From an uncultured Deferribacteres bacterium (lineage in GTDB: Bacteria; Zhuqueibacterota; JdFR-76; DREG01), in the NCBI GenBank assembly GCA_913009825.1, contig CAJVYQ010000004.1:62001-126000 (forward strand): a stretch of DNA of 64,000 bases, written 5' to 3'. Both the position numbers and the translations under genes were made by a program. Positions 2,108 to 33,068 of the stretch are shown in pieces. The notes beneath the pieces were generated by a model. It was given only the letters and a program-made list of their open reading frames with translations, was not told the DNA's origin and searched no databases. How positions within the stretch are numbered: position 1 is the stretch's first letter; the number at the start of each line of letters is the position of its first letter.

Positions 2108-3433
2108 ATGTTCGAAGAGCTGAGCAGAAAGCTTGATAGCGTATTTAAAAAGATCAAGGGGCAGGGAAAACTTTCGGAAGACAATATCAAAGAAGCCCTG
2201 CGTGATGTTCGGCGTGTTCTTTTAGAAGCTGATGTAAATTTCCGCGTTGCGAAAAAGTTTATTCAGGCGGTGCAGGAAAAAGCGGTTGGCCGGGAGGTGG
2301 TTCGCAGCATAACCCCGGGCCAACAGGTCGTTAAAATTGTGTACGATGAATTGTCCCGTTTGATGGGACAGTCTGCGGCGGATCTGCATTTTTCCAATAT
2401 TCCGCCAACAATTTTCATGATCGTTGGGTTGCAGGGTTCCGGAAAAACAACCTTTGTCGGGAAATTGGCAAAACATTTAAGGAGCAAGGGACACACTCCT
2501 TTAATGGTTGCAGTGGACATCTATCGTCCCGCAGCAGTGAAACAGTTGCAAACCATCGGCAAACAATTGGATATATCTGTGTTCTTTGAAGAAAATACCA
2601 ACCCGGTTGATCTGAGCAAAAAGGCGATATCCTTCTCCCGTCATAACGGGCAGGATTGTGTCATTTTGGATACGGCAGGCCGGCTTCATATCGACCGGGC
2701 CATGATGGACGAATTGGTGGAAATCAAAAAAACGGTTTCTCCCAACGAAATATTGTTTGTGGCGGATGGCATGACCGGTCAGGATGCGGTGAAAGCGGCG
2801 GAAGAATTCATGCAGCAACTGGATTTTAACGGCGTCGTTTTAACCAAAATGGATGGTGATGCCAGAGGCGGTGCCGCGCTTTCCATCAAAGCCGTAACCG
2901 GCAAACCGATTATGTTCTTCGGTACCGGTGAAAAATTTGATGCGCTGGAAATCTTCCATCCGGACCGTATGGCCTCGCGGATTTTGGGCATGGGCGATAT
3001 TGTCAGCCTGGTGGAAAAAGCACAGGCGACCATCGACCGGGAGCAGGCCGAGAAGATCGAGAAAAAAATACGGCGGCAGGAATTTACGCTGGAAGATTTT
3101 TTGGATCAGATGCATCAAATAAAGAAGATGGGCCCGCTTGACCAAATTATCGGCATGATTCCCGGTTTGGGAAATTCACCGTTGGGTAATGTTCAGGTTG
3201 ATGAAGGTGAGATGGTAAAAATAGAGGCAATCATCAATTCGATGACCCGTGATGAGCGCCGGCGGTCCAATATTATGAATGGCAGCAGACGAAAACGTGT
3301 GGCCAGAGGAAGCGGTACATCGGTACAAGATGTAAATCGTTTACTGAATCAATTTTCTCAAATGCAAAAAATGATGAAGCGATTCAGTAAAATGGGTAAA
3401 AGAGGTTTTGGAAAAAATTTATTTCCATTTTAA
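2108..3433 (+). CDS. ffh: Signal recognition particle GTPase Ffh
   Basis: A 441-residue SRP54/Ffh protein that binds signal sequences and 4.5S RNA and hands ribosomes to FtsY at the membrane. Seen: an N-terminal four-helix NG part; Walker A GLQGSGKTT at about residue 106; DTAGRLHID at about 187; TKMDGDARGG at about 244; and a methionine-rich M domain from about residue 300 with the RNA-binding segment GSRRKRVARGSGTSV. The C-terminus is Met/Lys/Phe rich. It heads the ribosome-biogenesis block: rpsP starts 34 bases downstream behind its own Shine-Dalgarno. No 4.5S RNA gene was recognised in the 244-base gap upstream. Confidence 0.97.
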   Translation: MFEELSRKLDSVFKKIKGQGKLSEDNIKEALRDVRRVLLEADVNFRVAKKFIQAVQEKAVGREVVRSITPGQQVVKIVYDELSRLMGQSAADLHFSNIPPTIFMIVGLQGSGKTTFVGKLAKHLRSKGHTPLMVAVDIYRPAAVKQLQTIGKQLDISVFFEENTNPVDLSKKAISFSRHNGQDCVILDTAGRLHIDRAMMDELVEIKKTVSPNEILFVADGMTGQDAVKAAEEFMQQLDFNGVVLTKMDGDARGGAALSIKAVTGKPIMFFGTGEKFDALEIFHPDRMASRILGMGDIVSLVEKAQATIDREQAEKIEKKIRRQEFTLEDFLDQMHQIKKMGPLDQIIGMIPGLGNSPLGNVQVDEGEMVKIEAIINSMTRDERRRSNIMNGSRRKRVARGSGTSVQDVNRLLNQFSQMQKMMKRFSKMGKRGFGKNLFPF

Positions 3434-3467
3434 TGAATTGATTGCATGAAAAAAGGAGGTAGCAGAT

Positions 3468-3965
3468 TTGGCGGTTAGATTACGCTTAACGAGAATGGGC
3501 AGGAAGAAAAAACCTTATTACCGTATTATTGCGGTTGACTCGCGTGCCCCGCGGGACGGACGATATCTGGAAAATCTTGGCTATTACAACCCGCTGCCCG
3601 ATCCCTTTGAACTGAAAATAAATGAGGAACGTGTGCTGTACTGGCTCGGCGTTGGCGCCATCCCCAGTGATACAGTGAACTCCTTGTTCAGAAAAGAAGG
3701 TATTCTGTTCAAATGGGACCTGGTTAAACGCGGATTGTCCGGTGAAGAATTGGACAAGGAGATGAAGCGTTGGGAAGTGATCCAATTAGAAAGAAGGCGG
3801 AAACAGGAAAAGAAGCTGGAAGCTAAAACGGATCGGGAAGAGAGCAAAGAAGCTCCGGCAGAAGCGGCTGCGGAAGAGGTTCAGGAAAAAGCCGAAGAAA
3901 CTGCCGATGCTGCTCCGGAATCCGGTGAAGCTGAAGATGAAAAAACCGTAGAAAAAGCATCGTAG
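3468..3965 (+). CDS. rpsP: 30S ribosomal protein S16 with acidic C-terminal tail
   Basis: The first 85 or so residues are a standard S16 (MAVRLRLTRMGRKKKPYYRI, then RDGRYLENLGYYNP). The start is TTG, chosen because AAAGGAGGT lies 8 bases upstream and the product begins exactly at the family N-terminus. After about residue 110 the protein continues into a Glu/Ala/Lys-rich, low-complexity tail of some 50 residues, giving 165 aa against the usual 80-100. Acidic tails on S16 occur in several FCB lineages; their function is unknown to me. S16 is an early-binding small-subunit protein. It is the first gene of the rpsP-khpA-rimM-trmD-rplS order seen in many bacteria. Confidence 0.97.
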   Translation: MAVRLRLTRMGRKKKPYYRIIAVDSRAPRDGRYLENLGYYNPLPDPFELKINEERVLYWLGVGAIPSDTVNSLFRKEGILFKWDLVKRGLSGEELDKEMKRWEVIQLERRRKQEKKLEAKTDREESKEAPAEAAAEEVQEKAEETADAAPESGEAEDEKTVEKAS

Positions 3966-4073
3966 TCACAATAAAGACAATACAAAGGTATATTTTCTAA
4001 GCAGTTCAGTACTAAGTGGTATCCTGGAATTACTCAGGTTGTTTTGGCCGGAACCTTATTAGGAGAGAGAAAA

Positions 4074-4304
4074 ATGAAGGAGTTCGTTGAATTTATTGCA
4101 AAACACTTGGTGGACAGGCCGGAAGAAGTGCGCGTTACCGAGATTGATGGCGAGAGAACAATTGTATATGAACTCCGCGTTGGTGACGGCGAATTGGGGA
4201 AAGTGATTGGCAAACATGGCAATACAGCGAAATCTATTCGCACATTGCTGGCTGCCGCTTCGGCAAAATCCGGGAAACGGGCCGTTCTGGAAATATTGGA
4301 ATAG
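4074..4304 (+). CDS. khpA: KH-domain RNA-binding protein KhpA (YlqC)
   Basis: A 76-residue single KH-domain protein. The KH signature [21 protein letters not shown] (VIGKHG is the GxxG loop) is complete. The ORF track starts at 4044, but I place the start at the ATG at 4074: it has AGGAGAGAG just upstream, and [19 protein letters not shown] matches the family N-terminus. In Firmicutes KhpA pairs with KhpB and binds many RNAs, affecting cell size and division. Its position between rpsP and rimM is conserved across many phyla and suggests a link to ribosome maturation. rimM starts 14 bases downstream. Confidence 0.93.
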
Positions 4305-4317
4305 TAGTTACTGCATA

Positions 4318-4848
4318 GTGAAATTTGCACCGGAAGATCATGTTGTAATCGGCCTTATCCTCAAACCTCACGGGATAAAAGGAGAGGTAAAAGTTAAACC
4401 GGTCACCGATTTTCCCGAACGCTTCTTAAAATTGAAACGGGCTTTTTTAGTATCCGTACATGGTGCGCGGAAAGAGATTTCTATCGAAAAAGCCAAAGTA
4501 CTCCGGGATATAGTGCTGTTGAAAATCAGGGGAATCGATTCTATCTCCGAAGCAGAAAAATACCGCGGTGATGAAATTGTGATTATGCCGGAAGACAGGT
4601 TTAAGCTGCCGCCGGATTATTATTATGAGTCCGATTTAATCGGAATGCAGGTTGTTCTTTCTCATGGTGAAATGATTGGCACGATTGTCGATGTGCAATC
4701 CTACCCTGCACAGGATTTGTTGATTGTGAAAACAGGGAGCGGCAGAGAAATTTTGCTCCCTTTCGTAAAGGAGATTGTTCCGGAGCTGTTGCCGGAGGAA
4801 GGGAAAGTGATTGTAAACAATATTTCGGGACTTTTCGACGAGGAATAA
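4318..4848 (+). CDS. rimM: Ribosome maturation factor RimM
   Basis: RimM helps 16S rRNA processing and assembly of the 30S head by binding S19. The track ORF begins at 4207 inside khpA in another frame; the real start is the GTG at 4318, giving 176 residues that open with the family pattern VVIGLILKPHGIKGEVKVKP. The N-terminal RimM beta-barrel is followed by a PRC-barrel-like C-terminal half (YYYESDLIGMQV, then EILLPFVKEIV). The stop TAA ends one base before the trmD start, so the two are translationally coupled. Confidence in identity is high; the exact start could be a few codons away. Confidence 0.95.
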   Translation: MKFAPEDHVVIGLILKPHGIKGEVKVKPVTDFPERFLKLKRAFLVSVHGARKEISIEKAKVLRDIVLLKIRGIDSISEAEKYRGDEIVIMPEDRFKLPPDYYYESDLIGMQVVLSHGEMIGTIVDVQSYPAQDLLIVKTGSGREILLPFVKEIVPELLPEEGKVIVNNISGLFDEE

Positions 4849-4849
4849 T

Positions 4850-5575
4850 GTGCGGTTTGATTTAGTGACGGCGTTTCCAAATTTGGTCGCAGGACCGTTG
4901 GAAGAGAGCATCATAAAAAGGGCACAGCAGAAAAATCTTGTTGAAATTGTGGTTCATGATCTGCGGCAATTTGCCTGCGATAAACACCATCGGTTGGATG
5001 ATTATCCGTACGGCGGCGGACCCGGAATGGTGATGAAACCTGAACCGTTTTTTCGCTGTGTTGAGCAGATCATCGGCGATGTTCCGGCAAAAAAACGTAA
5101 AATTATTTTTATGAGTCCGCAGGGAATAACTTTCACTCAGGAAACAGCCAATGATCTCACGAATTGGGATCATATTATTCTTTTGTGCGGCCATTACAAA
5201 GGGGTTGATGAGCGGGTGATCGAAGCGCTGGTGGATGAAGAGATATCGGTGGGAGATTATGTGCTGACCGGCGGAGAGCTGCCCGCGTTGATTGTCATCG
5301 ATGCGGTATCCAGATTGATCCCGGGCGTGATCAGCGATTTAGAGTCGGCCAATACGGATTCTTTCCAGCATGATTTGCTGGACTGTCCCTATTTTACACG
5401 TCCGGAAGAATACCGGGGAATGCGCGTGCCGGATGTTTTGCTGTCCGGGCATCATCAAAAAGTTGCGCAATGGCGCGCGGAGCAGGCGCTTGCCAGAACA
5501 AAAAAAAGAAGAAAAGATTTATTAAATAGAAAAATGTCAGAGCCGGATAGAATGGAGGATAGAAAAGATGGGTAA
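4850..5575 (+). CDS. trmD: tRNA (guanine-N1)-methyltransferase TrmD
   Basis: A 241-residue SPOUT methyltransferase that methylates G37 of tRNAs with an adjacent G36 using SAM, preventing +1 frameshifting. Seen: [26 protein letters not shown], and the trefoil-knot SAM-binding segment [20 protein letters not shown]. The start is GTG, one base after the rimM stop. The 3' end overlaps the rplS start by 8 bases. Length and motif order match the family. Confidence 0.97.
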
Positions 5576-24809: not shown

Positions 24810-26675
24810 TTAATTCCAAAACTTCCACCGGACACCAAATTGAAACTGCCAGCCGGGTATGGTATGTTGACTGCGATAGGCGAACGATTGATTGGTGAGA
24901 TTGTACCAGTAAAAGAAAACGTCGGCATCTCCGACTTCAAAAATTAGTTTTACATGGAGAAGCGGAAGCGCAGGGAGGGTTTCGATTGTGAATTGCGAAA
25001 AATCCTGTGTGAGACCGTAACTGTTCCGCCGGCTCATGTATTCCGTGTAAATCAGGAGGTTGGCCTTTAAATTGTTTTGGAAAAAGGAGTGGGTAGCGTG
25101 AACATTAAAAAACAGGTGCTGGTTAGGGATTTCAAGCAGATCCGGTGATTCCCGTTGTGAATAACCGGTAAATTGATAGCGCGTCGTCGCCGAAAGCCAG
25201 TTTGTAAACGTGAAATCAGCGCTCAAAAACAGAGAGGAGGAGAAATAATCCGGCGCCGTTTTAAACTGAATCTCCGGCTCCGTCAGGTTGATGGGGTATT
25301 CCAGATTGGCAACTTGTTGGAATAGGAAACCGGCGTACAGATCGAACCGTGAAGATGAGTGCCATTTCAATTTGATTTGCCCACCTTTCAATTCTGCCGT
25401 TTTATCTGCGTGTGCATGGGTGATGAAGGTTGAATCGGCAGTTTGAACCATGATCGGCCAGGGTTGATTTTCAAAAGGGAGAACTCTGCCGCGGCGCCAG
25501 CCCAGAGGCGGCACAACCTGGCGGTAGAAACCGGAAGCGGAGAGGTTGAGACTTCCCGAGATCCCCCTGTTCCAAATGATATTAGTTGTAAACGCCCGCT
25601 TATTCCTACTGTAAACAGAGGCTTTGAGCGAAGCGGCGAAACGGTTCGAACCTAAATTGATTTGGTGAGTGAGTAAAATTTTACCCGGAAATTCGCTGAT
25701 TCCGGCAAAACCATTTCGTGAAGCGGAAACAGCTTCAGCCTGTAAGCGGAACAGCGTGGTGGAACTTTTTGTAACACGGGTAGCCGCTGCGGAGAGATTT
25801 GCCCAGCTCATTTTCTCTAATGTATGCCACGGCAGTTTCCAGTCGGTGTATTCCCTCTCGTCCCGATGAATCTGCACCTGAAATAGCGCGCGCCATTTTT
25901 GCGAATAGTTGTAGCTTAATTCCAGGGCATGGTCCTGCCGAAGAGCTTTTCGCTGTAAGCGGGAAAATTGGATCTGATAATTCTTATTAATTGCTCCGGG
26001 GGTTCCCGTTTCCTGTTTGTTGGAGAGAACCCGGTAGGTCAATTTGGCGCGTTCAGAAAGGGGGATAGTCAGGTCTGCGTGCAATCTGAAAATATTTACT
26101 TTGCTGTTCGAATATATCCCGCCATATTTGAAAAAGTCAGCGCCGGTCTTAAATTTGATGCCGTGAGAAAACCCGCGGCGGAAAAGGATGTTCACATCGG
26201 TTAAACCGTTGTCTCCGGTGTGATAGAAAACCTGCGTGTACGGTCGTGGTGCCGTAACATTTTCATTGTTGATTTCCAGAGTTGTGAAGTCGATGACACG
26301 CAGTGTGTCGATGGGGACAACCGGCAAAAAATTCAGATCGAACACGCCGTAAACCGGATCCGTAAGCGATATTCCCTGCCAAATTACTTGTGTCATCCAG
26401 CCTGGAACGGCGCTGTTTTGCAACAACTGCGGCTGACCGAATTGCGGCATGCGTGCAACCCAAAAATGCGGCAGTTGGTTGCTCCATTTCCCTAAATCAT
26501 AATCACCGAGTTGACGCAGCGCCGTTTGCGAAAAAACAAAATCGGTGCAGGCCGGTTCCTTTTGTACTTTGGTCGAATCGCTTTGCCCCACCGGTTTTTC
26601 CTGTCCTGTGGCTACAAGGGAGGTGAAAAGAAAGCATAATAAAACGAAACGGAATTTTAATCTTTTACTTTTCAT
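24810..26675 (-). CDS. Outer-membrane beta-barrel protein with TonB-plug-like N-terminus
   Basis: A 621-residue protein with a signal peptide (KFRFVLLCFLFTSLVATGQ) and a short mature N-terminus. The region VIWQGISLTDPVYGVFDLNFLPVVPIDTLRVIDF resembles the second half of a TonB plug. The rest is alternating aromatic/polar strands typical of an outer-membrane barrel, ending in VRWKFWN. It overlaps the ECF S component gene by 4 bases, so the pair is translationally coupled. I infer an outer-membrane receptor that feeds the S component with a small cofactor. A TonB box is not obvious, and a plain porin is the alternative. Confidence 0.65.
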   Translation of the reverse strand: MKSKRLKFRFVLLCFLFTSLVATGQEKPVGQSDSTKVQKEPACTDFVFSQTALRQLGDYDLGKWSNQLPHFWVARMPQFGQPQLLQNSAVPGWMTQVIWQGISLTDPVYGVFDLNFLPVVPIDTLRVIDFTTLEINNENVTAPRPYTQVFYHTGDNGLTDVNILFRRGFSHGIKFKTGADFFKYGGIYSNSKVNIFRLHADLTIPLSERAKLTYRVLSNKQETGTPGAINKNYQIQFSRLQRKALRQDHALELSYNYSQKWRALFQVQIHRDEREYTDWKLPWHTLEKMSWANLSAAATRVTKSSTTLFRLQAEAVSASRNGFAGISEFPGKILLTHQINLGSNRFAASLKASVYSRNKRAFTTNIIWNRGISGSLNLSASGFYRQVVPPLGWRRGRVLPFENQPWPIMVQTADSTFITHAHADKTAELKGGQIKLKWHSSSRFDLYAGFLFQQVANLEYPINLTEPEIQFKTAPDYFSSSLFLSADFTFTNWLSATTRYQFTGYSQRESPDLLEIPNQHLFFNVHATHSFFQNNLKANLLIYTEYMSRRNSYGLTQDFSQFTIETLPALPLLHVKLIFEVGDADVFFYWYNLTNQSFAYRSQHTIPGWQFQFGVRWKFWN

Positions 26676-27286
26676 GCAGTATTTTCCGGATAAAATATTC
26701 TGTTGCTGATCTTTGGCATGATAACAGGCAGCAGAACTGCGAAGATTAACATATTGGTTGTGATGTGAAAAAGATAGTAATACATGCCAAAAATCAGGCT
26801 GGTCAGCAATTTGGGCAGTGTCAGTCCGGCAAAAATTAAAAAGCCGATGCTGGTGAGCAGGTCAAAAATAAGTGTGAGAACCAATCCCATCGCGCCCAGA
26901 GAAAGCTTCTGTTTGATGTGAAATTTTTCCTCATCCCCGTGGAAAGTAAATTTCCCTTTTGCAATGAGGCTGCCGGCGAAAGCCACCAAAGCCATGCCGG
27001 CAATCTGCGCCGCCATAAGCGGAGGGGAGGCGATACCCAGCGGATTCAACAGAGAGAAGGTGAATTCTCCAAGAACGGCGGCGGTGATCCCGTTGCGCCG
27101 CCCCAAAAAATAGCCCGCCAGAAAAAAGGTAGCGGTCACCAGTTCCAGATTGGGCACCGACAAAAAAAGTAAACCAAGCGCCACCGCCAATGCGGCAAAA
27201 ATAGCAATGAAAACAATATTTCGCAAAATCGGTTGTACTCCTTCTTCAAGGTGATTCAATATATTTTTATCCCGTTTAAAAATCAA
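26672..27286 (-). CDS. ECF-type transporter substrate-binding (S) component
   Basis: A 204-residue integral membrane protein with about six hydrophobic segments. The arrangement of NIVFIAIFAALAVALGLLFL, a loop with LELVTATFFLAGYFLGRRNG, and FTFSLLNPLGIASPPLMAAQIAG is typical of S components of energy-coupling-factor vitamin transporters. These bind the vitamin and dock with a shared EcfAAT module, which is not in this window. The substrate is not readable. Cobalamin or a precursor would suit the B12-dependent enzymes nearby, but this is only an inference. It is the first gene of a minus-strand pair with the outer-membrane protein. Confidence 0.7.
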   Translation of the reverse strand: MIFKRDKNILNHLEEGVQPILRNIVFIAIFAALAVALGLLFLSVPNLELVTATFFLAGYFLGRRNGITAAVLGEFTFSLLNPLGIASPPLMAAQIAGMALVAFAGSLIAKGKFTFHGDEEKFHIKQKLSLGAMGLVLTLIFDLLTSIGFLIFAGLTLPKLLTSLIFGMYYYLFHITTNMLIFAVLLPVIMPKISNRIFYPENTA

Positions 27287-28197
27287 GACGAAATAATTTT
27301 GATACGAAAGGTTGTGAAGAAAAGAAAGAAGACGGTAGTTATTCCGGTGTCATTCATGGTTATTTGATTGTCATTTAATTGCCAATCCGTTATCTGGCAG
27401 TTTGAAATAATGCCGTTTCCTTTTTTTCGTGATGCAATTACAGTGAAAGCGCTAAAACCGTAGCGCCGGAACTAAGTTTTTTATATGAAACCAATTTGGC
27501 TATTCTTCATAATTTACCTATTTACAAATGATTGCGGTTTTTCATTGCGGTTATTCATTTTAGTACGTAAATTGCGTTTGATTGATAATTGTGATCATTT
27601 GAACCCGTTCACACACGAGCAGTATTTCGCGGGGAGATGAAAAATTTATAATTTAGGAAATTAGTACTTCTTACTTTACTGGCAATTATATAGTGTCTGA
27701 ACGAAAAGTGGAAAACATGCATCTTGCTTGTTCAATAAACTGTTTAGTTTTCTATTTTTCAATAAGATTATAATTCAAACAAGATGTTTGATATACAATT
27801 TAGATACTTTTCGTTCAGCCTCTATATGGCAAAAAATTAAAATTCTGTAAAAAAAACTATTGACTTTTATCATATTCCTATTAAATTAATTTCAAGCAAG
27901 GCTAAATATGCGAATAATGATTACCATAGATACAAATTTATTATACCTCATATAGAAGCGAATGTCCGGCAGCCAATTTTTGAGGAGATTGAGTTGCAAT
28001 AACACTTGTTTTTACTGCCCCACTATTTTTAAAAATTTGTGATCTTTCAGTCCATGTTTTTATTCACTAATTTTCAAAGGAGGTGATAAATAAAGCAATC
28101 TATTGGTTCAATTTATCAAAATGAGAAAGGAGGTGAGAAAAGTTTTTTTCGTCAGTAAGTAGTAGTTGAAGTTCGTAACTAACTGGAGGAGAAAGTA
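27287..28197. other. Long intergenic region between the divergent ECF and susC genes
   Basis: Over 900 bases without a convincing gene. It holds a family A element (27693-27822), a short possible promoter (TTGACT at 27860), and near the susC start two copies of AAAGGAGGTGA (28078 and 28126) ahead of the real Shine-Dalgarno GGAGGAG. A 13-codon ORF (MRKEVRKVFFVSK) starts at 28121 over the second copy. The rest is AT-rich with no feature I recognise. Confidence 0.6.
27693..27822. repeat. MITE-like element, family A copy 2
   Basis: A 130-base element flanked by TA, colinear and about 95% identical to the copy at 8649-8778. The right end is mutated (CAGCCTC instead of CAGACAC). Non-coding. Confidence 0.85.
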
Positions 28198-31100
28198 ATG
28201 AAAAAGATATTCATTGTATCATTTTGTCTTGTTTTTGCCTTATTACCGATGTTGGTACTGGGGCAACAACAGGCACTACTGGTTTCCGGGAAGGTTGTGG
28301 ATAGTGACGGCAATCCGCTTCCGGGAGCTAATGTTATAATCCAGGATTATGATATCGGCGCGGCAACCGATATTAACGGCAATTACAGTTTCAAAGTTCC
28401 GGCAAAGATGAATAAAGGCCAGGATGTGGTTGTAACCGCCCGTTTTATTGGTTACCATTCCAAAACGGCCTCAATTACGCTGAATTCCGGTGTGAAGACA
28501 TTGAATTTTACTCTTGCCGCAGATGTTTTACAGATGGACGCCATTGTGGTTACCGGCGTTAGCGAAGGCACACCGAAAAAGTTACTGCCGTTCAGTGTGT
28601 CCCGGGTGTCTGAGGAAGCGCTCCAGATGGTGCCGCAGCAGAGTCCTATCGAGAGTTTGCAGGGTAAGGTTTCCGGTGTGGATATTGTTCAAGGTTCCGG
28701 CAAACCGGGCACCGGCTCGGATATCAAAATACGTGGCGCTACAAGTATCGGCAGCGGCAATTCTCCCCTCATAGTCGTAGACGGCATTATTCTGGACGCC
28801 AGCAGTGAGGTTGATATCGATGCTCTGGACGTGGAGACTATCGAAGTGGTCAAAGGCGCTGCAGCGGCAGCTCTGTGGGGATCACGTGCTTCTGCCGGTG
28901 TGATCAATATCAAGACCAAGCGCGCCGGTAACATGGCGCTGGGTATGACAAAAATCCGGGTGAGGAGTGAAGCCGGTTACAGTCAGTTTGTTGGTTCTGT
29001 AAACGATTACCGCTCTGCCCATCATGAATTTGCGGTCACTGCCGATGGCAAACATTTTGCCGACGCCGATGGTAACCCGGTTAAAGATGAAGCCGGTAAT
29101 GTAATCACCGATCCATGGAAAGAATACCAGGCGTCTGTGTTGGATGGCAGCAATACCTCGAAGATTTTCCAGGATAATAACTGGCCTACCTCCGTTCCCA
29201 CCTTCAATCAGGTCGATCAGTTTTTCAATGCCGGCCAGTATCTGCGGAACCGCGCCGAGATCAGCCGTCATATGCAGGGCGGTAACATGCTGCTCAGTTT
29301 TGCGAACCTGCATGAACCGGGTATTATTGCCGGTGTGAAAGGATATAAGCGCAGCAATATCCGGTTGAATTTTGACCAGCGAATGACCGATAACCTGAAA
29401 TTGGGTTTGAGCGCTTATTATATGGATTCCTGGCGTGATGATCCGCAAGGTTCCCTCAACCCATTTTATTCGATGATGTTCATGTCACCCATGGCCAATT
29501 TGGAAGCAGATAATTCGGATGGAACTGCCTATCGAATCGATCCCGATCCAAAATCGTTGGAAGAGAATCCTTTGTATGCTTCCCACAACCAGGACATTGA
29601 CAACAATCGCCGGTCGTTGAATGCGGATTTTAATATCAACTGGAACCCGGTGCAATGGCTGGTTTTGAACGGCCACATGGCTTTCGACCGCAATAACCGT
29701 TTCAATACCCGTTATTATTTCAAAGGATTCAAAAGTATCGATAATCAAAACTATCCCACCGGGTACTATTCCCGATACCATTCCTTTAATAACTCGATCA
29801 ATTCCGATTTGACTGCAAAGGTGTTCAGGGATATCGGCAATTTTTCCATGAAAAACACGGTGCGCTACCATTATGAGAGTTCCGAATATCAGTCAACAAC
29901 CGCAAGCGGTTCCAATTTAGCGGTAAACGGTGTGCGGAGTCTGGGTGTGGTAGATCCTGAACAAAACAATACGTCTTCATATCAATCCATCGTTCGCTCG
30001 GTTGGTTATTACTGGGAATCAGCCGTAAATTACAAAGAAAAATATCTGAGTAATGTTCTGATACGCTATGACGGCAGTTCTCTGTTCGGTGAAGATCAAC
30101 GCTACCATCTCTATTACCGCGCCGGTTTCGGCTGGCGGTTAAGCCAGGAACCATGGTGGTTCTCTGAAAAGATCAATGAGTTTAAATTACGTGCCGCGTA
30201 CGGTACCGCCGGTAACCGGCCCGGTTTTTCCTCCCAATACGAAACCTTTTCTGTCGGTGGCGGGACCATTTCAAAAGGTAGTTTAGGAAATAAAGAATTA
30301 AAACCTGCTTTTTCAAAAGAGGCCGAAATAGGTTTGGAAATGGCGCTGTTTGATAAAATCTCACTGGAAATGGCCTATTCAAACAGAGTGACAGAAGACC
30401 AGATTTTAGGTGTACCGCTTCCTGCTTTTTTCGGGTATAGTTCACGAACGCTGAATGCCGGCACTCTGGAATCTAACACCATCGACGGAACCATCAGCGC
30501 CATGGTTTTCCAAAAACGGGATATGAGCTGGAATCTGGGACTCACATTTGCCAGAACCCGGGAGAAAATCACGAAATTAGACCGGCCTCCGTGGCGTCAG
30601 GGCGCTTATAACGCATTTTATGTGCGTGAAGGTGAAACCAATGGCATCATGTACGGTTACCGCTGGTTGGAAAACACCGGCGATCTTTCCGATCTGTCCG
30701 CAGCCGACAAGATCAATTATAACAACGGCGCTTTCCAGGTGAATAATGACGGTTATCTGGTACCGGTTGGCGAAGGAAATTCCTGGAAAAGCGGTCCTGG
30801 TTCGGATGGTATTGCCGGCACCGATGATGATTTGTGGGGCACCCCTGTGGTGGTTGGTACCGATGAAAACGGCGATCCCATTGAGATGGAATATGGCATG
30901 CCGGTGAAATATGCCAAATTGGATCCCAAGGAAGGCAGAACGGGATTTGTTCAAATCGGTAATGTGCTGCCCGATGTTTCCACCAACCTGTCGTCAACTT
31001 TCCGTTGGAAAGGGTTAACCGTTTACGGTCTGGTCAGCGCTGTTTTTGGCGGCAGTATTTACAACGGAACCCGCCAGTGGTGTTATCGTGAACTGCGGCA

Positions 31101-31458
31101 CACCAATGTGGATCAATTCGGCAAACCGGAAGCTGAAAAGAAGCCGATCGGTTACTACAGTAAATTGTACGATACCAACAAAACCAATAAAGAATTTGTT
31201 GAAAGCGGCAGTTATCTGAAATTGCGTGAAGTTACCGTGTCTTACCGGTTCGGTAAAAGTTTCCTCACCGGTTTTGCCGGCGGTTTCCTGAGTAATGTTT
31301 TCCAAAGTGTTTCTCTGGGTTTGATTGGCCGGAATCTGATTACCATCACAAACTATGAGGGATTTGATCCAGAAGTCGGCAGCGTTGAATACCGCGTGGA
31401 TAATTTTGCTTATCCGCATTTCAGGCAAGTCACCGCATTTGTTGAATTTGAGTTATAG
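28198..31458 (+). CDS. SusC/RagA-family TonB-linked outer-membrane protein
   Basis: A 1086-residue outer-membrane transporter. Seen in order: signal peptide (MKKIFIVSFCLVFALLPMLV); a carboxypeptidase-D-like domain (VSGKVVDSDGNPLPGANVII); a TonB-box-like DAIVVTG; the plug with SVSRVSEEALQ, the SusC signature SGVDIVQGSGKPGTGSDIKI and SPLIVVDGIIL; VKGAAAAALWGSRASAGVINI; and a large barrel ending in FVEFEL. SusC proteins pair with a SusD lid to import glycans, peptides or other large nutrients. The susD gene follows 11 bases on. The substrate is not indicated: no glycoside hydrolase or regulator is adjacent. The GGAGGAGAAAGTA Shine-Dalgarno fixes the start. Confidence 0.93.
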   Translation: MKKIFIVSFCLVFALLPMLVLGQQQALLVSGKVVDSDGNPLPGANVIIQDYDIGAATDINGNYSFKVPAKMNKGQDVVVTARFIGYHSKTASITLNSGVKTLNFTLAADVLQMDAIVVTGVSEGTPKKLLPFSVSRVSEEALQMVPQQSPIESLQGKVSGVDIVQGSGKPGTGSDIKIRGATSIGSGNSPLIVVDGIILDASSEVDIDALDVETIEVVKGAAAAALWGSRASAGVINIKTKRAGNMALGMTKIRVRSEAGYSQFVGSVNDYRSAHHEFAVTADGKHFADADGNPVKDEAGNVITDPWKEYQASVLDGSNTSKIFQDNNWPTSVPTFNQVDQFFNAGQYLRNRAEISRHMQGGNMLLSFANLHEPGIIAGVKGYKRSNIRLNFDQRMTDNLKLGLSAYYMDSWRDDPQGSLNPFYSMMFMSPMANLEADNSDGTAYRIDPDPKSLEENPLYASHNQDIDNNRRSLNADFNINWNPVQWLVLNGHMAFDRNNRFNTRYYFKGFKSIDNQNYPTGYYSRYHSFNNSINSDLTAKVFRDIGNFSMKNTVRYHYESSEYQSTTASGSNLAVNGVRSLGVVDPEQNNTSSYQSIVRSVGYYWESAVNYKEKYLSNVLIRYDGSSLFGEDQRYHLYYRAGFGWRLSQEPWWFSEKINEFKLRAAYGTAGNRPGFSSQYETFSVGGGTISKGSLGNKELKPAFSKEAEIGLEMALFDKISLEMAYSNRVTEDQILGVPLPAFFGYSSRTLNAGTLESNTIDGTISAMVFQKRDMSWNLGLTFARTREKITKLDRPPWRQGAYNAFYVREGETNGIMYGYRWLENTGDLSDLSAADKINYNNGAFQVNNDGYLVPVGEGNSWKSGPGSDGIAGTDDDLWGTPVVVGTDENGDPIEMEYGMPVKYAKLDPKEGRTGFVQIGNVLPDVSTNLSSTFRWKGLTVYGLVSAVFGGSIYNGTRQWCYRELRHTNVDQFGKPEAEKKPIGYYSKLYDTNKTNKEFVESGSYLKLREVTVSYRFGKSFLTGFAGGFLSNVFQSVSLGLIGRNLITITNYEGFDPEVGSVEYRVDNFAYPHFRQVTAFVEFEL

Positions 31459-31469
31459 AAGGAGGCATT

Positions 31470-33068
31470 ATGAAACTGATAAAATATATTGCATTAAGCG
31501 TAGCGCCGCTCCTGATTCTTTTTCTGGTTTTCGGCTGCTCGCCCGATCTGTCGGTGACAAACCAGAACGCTCCGGATAAAGAACGTGCCTTGTCCAATCC
31601 CAATGACGTGGAGAAGCTGGCTGGCGGTTCTTTTAAGGAATTCTGGTGGTCACAAACCCAGTATTACGGTCCTCCCTGGTCGCTTTCTACCATGGCCGAT
31701 GAGTTTTCCTCTTCCTGGGGCAACTCCGGCATGCGGGACCTTTCTTCGGAACCGAGAAAAGCATGGGATAACTCTTCGTCTTATGGCTATCGGGTTGTCT
31801 CACGTAATGCATGGCGGTATTGTTATAAAGCTATATCCAATGCCAGTGATGCCATGGGTCAGATCAATGCCGGCTTGATAATTACCGATGCCGATGGTAA
31901 TGACCAGACAACGCGTTTGAAAGCCTGGTGTAAATTTATTCAGGGCATCAGTCTGGGATTTCTTGGCCAGTATTTTGATAAAGCGTTTATTATCGATGAG
32001 ACGGTAAACCTGGAAGCCGGCACCCCGCCAACGGCGCCGTACATGGAGGTGCATGAGGCCGGCATGCAAAAATTGGCTGAATGTATTCAACTCTCTGACA
32101 ATAACAGTTTCGATATACCGGAAGAATGGTGGCCGGGCAATAATTTCAGCAATGTGGATCTGGCCAAACTGGCTCATTCATTCATTGCCCGCTACGAAGC
32201 CGGCGTAGCCCGGGATCCGGCCGAACGAACTGCCCGGGATTGGGCCGGCATTGCCTCACATGCCGCCCAGGGTATTACAGAAGATTTCGGTTCGGACAAT
32301 GACGGCGATAACTGGTATTCCTATCTTCATGGCCTTTTCAGCAATAACACCTGGTGCCGTACCGATTATAAACTGATCGGGCCTGCGGATACCTCCGGCG
32401 CCTTCAAGGGCTGGTTAGATTCGCCTGTCGCGGATCGAAATTATATTCAAATCCACACTAATGATGCCCGTGTAACCGGCGGCACCTGGGATTCCGATGG
32501 TAAATATTTCCGTTATTACGGCAACTGCGCTTTCCGCGCCAATCGCGGTACTTATCATTTCTCTTACTACCACAGCTACAAATATATCGACTATTACAAA
32601 AACGGTTATGTGGGCTGGGCTCATATTATGAGTGTTGCGGAGATGGATTTTCTGCGTGCGGAAGCGGCACTGCGCCAGGGAGATGCCCAAACCGCGGTGG
32701 ATCTGATCAACAAATATCATGTGGGTATCGGTGAAATGGCTCCGGTTACTGCGGCTATTCCTGTCGGGAATCCCGGTGACCTGCGGGATGCCCGTCCGGA
32801 CATCGGTGACTTTGGCAATTCTCTGTGGGCTGTGATGAAATATGAAAAAGGTATAGAAATTGCCCAAAAGAATTGCGGCGTGGCTTGGACCGATCGCCGT
32901 GGCTGGGGTACGCTGGTTTCCGGCACACCCATTCACTTTCCGATTCCCGGCGAAGAACTTGAGGTGTTGCAGATGGGTAATTACACTTTTGGTGGTGTTG
33001 GCGGAGAAGGAGCCGCGCCCAAAATGCTGGCGCCCATGCCGCCGAAGATGGATATGATCAAGTATTAA
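31470..33068 (+). CDS. SusD/RagB-family nutrient-binding lipoprotein
   Basis: A 532-residue lipoprotein with signal peptide and lipobox VFGC at about residue 22. The N-terminal SPDLSVTNQNAPDKERALSNPNDVEKLAGG pattern and the helical middle are typical of SusD. The C-terminal half has FLRAEAALRQGDAQTAVDLINKY, the TPR-like SusD signature. It would sit on the SusC barrel and capture substrate at the surface. It is Trp/Tyr-rich, as sugar- or polyphenol-binding members often are. It starts 11 bases after susC with AAGGAGG upstream and is followed by a hairpin terminator. Confidence 0.92.
   Translation: MKLIKYIALSVAPLLILFLVFGCSPDLSVTNQNAPDKERALSNPNDVEKLAGGSFKEFWWSQTQYYGPPWSLSTMADEFSSSWGNSGMRDLSSEPRKAWDNSSSYGYRVVSRNAWRYCYKAISNASDAMGQINAGLIITDADGNDQTTRLKAWCKFIQGISLGFLGQYFDKAFIIDETVNLEAGTPPTAPYMEVHEAGMQKLAECIQLSDNNSFDIPEEWWPGNNFSNVDLAKLAHSFIARYEAGVARDPAERTARDWAGIASHAAQGITEDFGSDNDGDNWYSYLHGLFSNNTWCRTDYKLIGPADTSGAFKGWLDSPVADRNYIQIHTNDARVTGGTWDSDGKYFRYYGNCAFRANRGTYHFSYYHSYKYIDYYKNGYVGWAHIMSVAEMDFLRAEAALRQGDAQTAVDLINKYHVGIGEMAPVTAAIPVGNPGDLRDARPDIGDFGNSLWAVMKYEKGIEIAQKNCGVAWTDRRGWGTLVSGTPIHFPIPGEELEVLQMGNYTFGGVGGEGAAPKMLAPMPPKMDMIKY

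Follow-up and report, generated by a model that had tools for sequence, protein, structure and literature searches.

What do two overlapping genes, one for an inner-membrane S component and one for an outer-membrane barrel, import together, and do their products belong to a single route? The question is raised by a 64,000-nucleotide stretch of DNA (the window) from an uncultured bacterium with an assembly of 5.1 Mb. Its phylum is the Zhuqueibacterota, also named KSB1 (PMC11683472), and relatives of the host include a candidate division KSB1 MAG and BMS3Bbin03. The preliminary description of the window proposed a vitamin uptake route across both membranes, with a corrinoid as first guess on account of the neighbouring NrdJ and CobO genes.

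The two genes and their products

Both genes lie on the minus strand, the ECF-type S component first and the barrel second. The S-component reading frame (27286..26672) encodes 204 amino acids when counted from TTG 27286. The true start is probably TTG 27226, which gives a protein of 184 amino acids (26672-27226): a Shine-Dalgarno-like AGGAG (27238..27242, minus strand) is found 11 bases ahead of this codon, the conserved core of the family begins there in the alignment of homologues, and the confidence of the AF2 model rises sharply near it, the model being confident only from about residue 20 of the 204-residue frame. The barrel gene (24810..26675, minus strand, 621 amino acids) begins inside the S gene: the S stop codon and the barrel start codon share the four bases 26672..26675 in the ATGA-type overlap reported earlier. 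Its first codons specify a predicted signal peptide, MKSKRLKFRFVLLCFLFTSLVATG (26604..26675, minus strand), whose counterpart follows the S component in frame in fused relatives. The genes flanking the pair are unrelated to it and encode a GWxTD protein on one side and a SusC-like receptor on the other. A SusC/SusD-like pair at 28198-33068 is divergent from the S gene and has no evident link to the S-barrel pair.

The AF2 model of the S component (pLDDT 89.9) has six helices, as the preliminary description had it, in the S-component fold and matches solved S components. Its best Foldseek matches are RibU, PanT and ThiT, with probabilities of up to 0.99 yet E-values above 0.1. The Pfam family PF12822 matches the window protein with an E-value of 1.9e-5 and 25.2 bits, which is below the gathering cut-off of 30.7; the relatives L070 and L072 exceed that cut-off. 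A profile of 60 family sequences has a sole PDB match, 6fnp_A (CbrT), with an E-value of 1.4e-8. A 10-sequence subset of the same alignment served as the query of the S-family scan. Structure 6FNP is ECF-CbrT, the characterised cobalamin transporter of Lactobacillus delbrueckii, and CbrT is its S component (PMC5997447). Four strongly conserved residues of the window family (P45, N46, H174 and N178) align with identical residues of CbrT in the profile alignment. The two have in common the fold, the PN pair and the histidine and asparagine of the last helix. The CbrT system differs in being Gram-positive and without an outer-membrane partner, and overall identity between CbrT and the window protein is low. 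The window S component is related in sequence to this cobalamin S component, and corrinoid binding is predicted for it. Identity with BtuM was considered and dismissed because the translated S component contains no cysteine, whereas a cysteine of BtuM binds cobalt as axial ligand (PMC6072759).

The barrel on its own has no notable Pfam or NCBIfam match. When 50 paired barrels were combined in a profile, E. coli BtuB was the top PDB match (3rgm, 1nqe), with an E-value of 5e-37 over 565 positions. The AF2 model (pLDDT 88.7) places a short plug, about residues 46-137, inside a beta barrel, which agrees with the signal-peptide barrel and plug-like segment described before; the top Foldseek match of this model in the PDB is again BtuB (1nqg, E-value 3.7e-24, TM-score 0.80 by target length). 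The TonB-B12 equivalog TIGR01779 does not match the window barrel, and the fused receptor of locus L066 matches it under the cut-off (E-value 8e-57, 193 bits vs 600 required). A TonB box went unrecognised in 55 of the 58 paired barrels, by a scan that found one in just 4 of 18 other receptors; a match in genome G012 sits in the signal peptide and was scored as absent, and the motif EEVMVTG is carried by three fused receptors of family f11. Because the curated equivalog does not match and this weak scan recognised no TonB box, the protein was not filed as BtuB. Profile and model together point to a BtuB-like protein of the TonB-dependent-receptor type.

Inner-membrane partners and probable substrate

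Matches to the S family were found in 62 of the 82 genomes of the phylum. One of these, in G058, is weak and was not accepted as part of this system: the gene comes after one for a full TonB receptor, behind a NikR-like gene, and probably encodes a different S component. The three G058 genes (L096 5510-8394) are in tight order with a 19-base overlap, and the arrangement is possibly a parallel nickel version of the pairing of receptor and S component. The S component is also present in 37 of 39 genomes of a second phylum, that of locus L151, which is labelled Candidatus Zixiibacteriota in its record.

In group II ECF systems, shared modules encoded apart from the S component are normal. Co-occurrence with EcfAAT had been suggested as a check, and it was observed: EcfT is encoded in 76 of the 82 genomes and in 59 of the 61 that bear the S component. 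The host genome has one EcfT above the cut-off (G000:C24) and, separately, tandem EcfA-like ATPases (G000:C5), which are its top two TIGR04520 matches and score under the curated cut-off of that family. This is the layout of a shared module. Nowhere in the phylum does EcfT adjoin an S gene, and in two S-bearing genomes, G014 and G032, it was not found. Both observations would suit an S component that acts alone, as BtuM or some BioY proteins do. Such solitary action is nevertheless unlikely in view of the occurrence of EcfT in nearly all S-bearing genomes, the EcfA-like tandem of the host, the normality of unlinked modules in group II and the AxxxA pattern of S-component helix 1, which is conserved in the alignment of relatives.

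Use of the shared module is the preferred reading, and the S component appears to take the place of a BtuC-type permease. Nine genomes gave strong FecCD/BtuC matches, and eight of them have no strong S match. The two occur together in just one of the 61 S genomes, G023, which has 8% contamination. Fisher's test gives p 4e-5 for this exclusion, a statistic that ignores kinship; more telling are families f9 and f21, where sister genera differ in holding the S or the BtuC type. In the host genome a FecCD-like fragment of 96 bases stands at one end of contig C3, beside a stretch of 67% GC, and may leave room for a BtuC-type permease as well. Over positions 143900-147500 of that contig (L156 5900-9500), GC content changes from about 46% to 67% and the genes look actinobacterial; this stretch near the contig end is likely to be a chimeric join in the assembly or an insert of foreign DNA. 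All 82 genomes lack CbiC, which marks synthesis of the corrin ring, and corrinoid uptake is therefore probably obligatory.

The preliminary description had seen no riboswitch in the window, and none was detected at the locus even in a relaxed E-value scan of 27100-28250. It had proposed a search upstream of the genes in relatives, and held that an S component under a thiamine, biotin or other riboswitch would speak against its reading. In relatives, the cobalamin class (RF00174) was found near the S gene in both phyla. For 22 of the 61 S loci of the host phylum the S-gene contig carries such elements, 25 in number, all on the same strand and all within 5 kb. Nine of these, in nine genomes, are located 82-190 nt upstream of the S gene, and others precede neighbours such as BtuB-like receptors. 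In the second phylum, a cobalamin riboswitch is directly upstream at 12 of the 20 loci scanned. Loci scanned against all of Rfam contained no other riboswitch class, thiamine, biotin and FMN included. Since the riboswitches near the relatives' S genes are of the cobalamin class and no other class was found, the corrinoid guess stands, on firmer ground than the proximity of NrdJ and CobO.

The single cobalamin riboswitch of the host genome heads a separate BtuB-like gene, followed by one for a beta-propeller protein related to BtuG with a tail of the T9SS type. The window pair would therefore be a second, riboswitch-free corrinoid locus. Some relatives have a BtuB-like receptor and a beta-propeller protein beside the pair itself, behind cobalamin riboswitches. 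BtuG-like beta-propeller proteins with a T9SS-type C-terminal tail are encoded at L071 13237-15135 and L111 3134-5041; the L151 version is a lipoprotein, and the groups seem to anchor the B12 scavenger to the cell surface in different ways.

Transporters of precursors are among the members of known cobalamin regulons. The S component could likewise carry another vitamin or precursor (folate, riboflavin, pantothenate or a lower-ligand base) and merely be co-regulated with B12 genes, a proposal that accommodates the weak Pfam and NCBIfam matches to riboflavin and folate S families and the riboflavin S component as top Foldseek match. We consider it improbable: the only solved protein matched by the family profile is CbrT, a small base would hardly require a BtuB-like receptor, and the S component is nearly mutually exclusive with the cobalamin permease BtuC. 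A corrinoid is the favoured substrate.

Linkage and fusion of the two genes

Conservation of the pair had been named as a further check. Among 60 S genes of relatives that could be placed on DNA, 58 have the barrel directly downstream on the same strand. These are all of the testable cases (58 of 58); the other two are an S gene whose contig ends 203 bases past it and the weak, different S-like gene of G058. A chance pairing is ruled out by this degree of conservation. A barrel start codon with the 4-base overlap is available in 27 of the 51 unfused pairs. In the second phylum the barrel stands beside the S gene at 21 of 25 loci, and the S gene lacks it at 4 of 25. The order at L151 is riboswitch, S component, barrel, BtuB-like receptor and BtuG-like lipoprotein. 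Immediately before it lies ffh-rpsP-rimM-trmD (L151 1887-5358), a gene set also present in the window at 2108-5575. The short barrel without S component occurs as a lone gene in several BtuC-bearing genomes (L093, L094, L095 and L100).

Other genes recur near these loci. In families f20 and f21 the short barrel is followed by a DUF1848 gene, with or without the S component (L069 11278-12090; L070 3112-3912; L093 6475-7284; L095 10244-11074). The anaerobic ribonucleotide reductase NrdD and its activase NrdG are encoded directly after the S-barrel pair at L081 (3352-8778), L082 and L084 (genomes G018, G011 and G015). In G011 the pair and NrdD/NrdG stand behind a cobalamin riboswitch, which places a B12-independent enzyme in the same unit.

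In seven genomes from four lineages (G001, G014, G019, G020, G021, G064 and G065) the S component and the barrel form one open frame. A further fusion in the second phylum, L171, brings the total to at least five lineages. On the S tree the fused state requires four changes within the host phylum, and at least three are forced by well-supported branches. The junction DNA is free of stop codons, and the positively charged C-terminal tail of the S component leads straight into a hydrophobic stretch; the barrel signal peptide becomes a seventh hydrophobic segment. Known S components have both termini in the cytoplasm, which fits a signal peptide in this position. Sites of the A-x-A type occur at most junctions, for example after QSRFLLLLLVVNLLVTCVPNYALA (next residue S) and QKHRALFVMAGVLLITFRPPEVTA (next residue Q), and are read from the sequence as predicted cleavage sites. 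In G019-G021 an internal ATG behind GGGAGG could start the receptor alone; fused and separate products are therefore both possible there. A recent survey of the S-component fold describes fusions to signalling and NRAMP domains and leaves TonB and the outer membrane unmentioned (PMC11109136). The open-access literature searched contained no report of a fusion between an S component and an outer-membrane receptor.

It is very improbable that S component and barrel act as one physical trans-envelope unit. In such a unit the linker of the fused forms might stay uncut and tether the S component to the plug, and the ECF side, instead of TonB, would open a barrel that has no recognised TonB box. That the barrel is an unrelated outer-membrane protein kept beside the S gene by operon history, as the unrelated flanking genes of the window (GWxTD protein and SusC-like receptor) and the unrecognised TonB box might suggest, is very improbable in the face of the 58 adjacent pairs, the fusions in several lineages and the best profile and structure matches to BtuB.

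A proposed uptake route and its relatives

The S component and the BtuB-like receptor very probably constitute an uptake pair for corrinoids (vitamin B12), with transport itself a prediction. Several observations count against this assignment: the window has no riboswitch, most paired barrels have no recognised TonB box, and the S component scores below the Pfam gathering threshold. To these are added the two S-bearing genomes in which EcfT was unseen, the FecCD fragment of the host, the barrels without S component in BtuC genomes and the second-phylum S genes without barrel.

The proposed mechanism is as follows. The pair would be a corrinoid-specific uptake unit of a corrinoid-dependent bacterium. 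(i) Both proteins would be made together, by translational coupling over ATGA in the host and from a single reading frame in at least five other lineages. (ii) In the fused forms, the cytoplasmic tail of the S component would double as the start of the barrel signal peptide, and signal peptidase would free the barrel. (iii) The BtuB-related barrel would carry the corrinoid across the outer membrane into the periplasm. (iv) After a presumed handover, the S component would bind the corrinoid at the inner membrane. Together with a shared EcfA-EcfA'-EcfT module, whose genes lie elsewhere, it would deliver the ligand to the cytoplasm, replacing BtuCD.

A comparison for the fused forms is FbcH of Bradyrhizobium, a cytochrome b/c1 polyprotein in which an inner-membrane protein and an exported protein are made in one chain and separated by signal peptidase. 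Both FbcH products remain in a cytoplasmic-membrane complex, whereas the second product here is an outer-membrane barrel, and cleavage here is a prediction.

A pairing of this kind is already known from BtuM and btuB. BtuM is an S-component-like inner-membrane B12 transporter of Gram-negative bacteria without BtuCDF and is genomically associated with btuB (PMC6072759); as in the window pair, an inner-membrane S-like protein is tied to an outer-membrane receptor gene. The Thiobacillus host of BtuM has no ECF module, whereas the window genome has EcfT and EcfA-like genes, and no BtuM-receptor fusion was seen in that source. BtuB and BtuB-BtuG of Bacteroides (PMC10404256) resemble the paired barrel in fold and by profile match; the paired barrel differs in its short N-terminal region and unrecognised TonB box. 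The inner-membrane step in Bacteroides is an ABC transporter (PMC10404256), in contrast to the S component here. New are the obligate coupling over a phylum, its reach into a second phylum and the in-frame fusion of an S component to an outer-membrane receptor.

On this reading, two groups of uncultured bacteria gain an assignment for an inner-membrane step of corrinoid uptake that had been missing; the first group (82 genomes, no CbiC) appears unable to make the corrin ring. The pair also provides a clean genetic system, including in-frame fusions of proteins from two membranes, in which to ask whether the transporters of the inner and outer membranes are produced in a fixed ratio and whether they come into contact.
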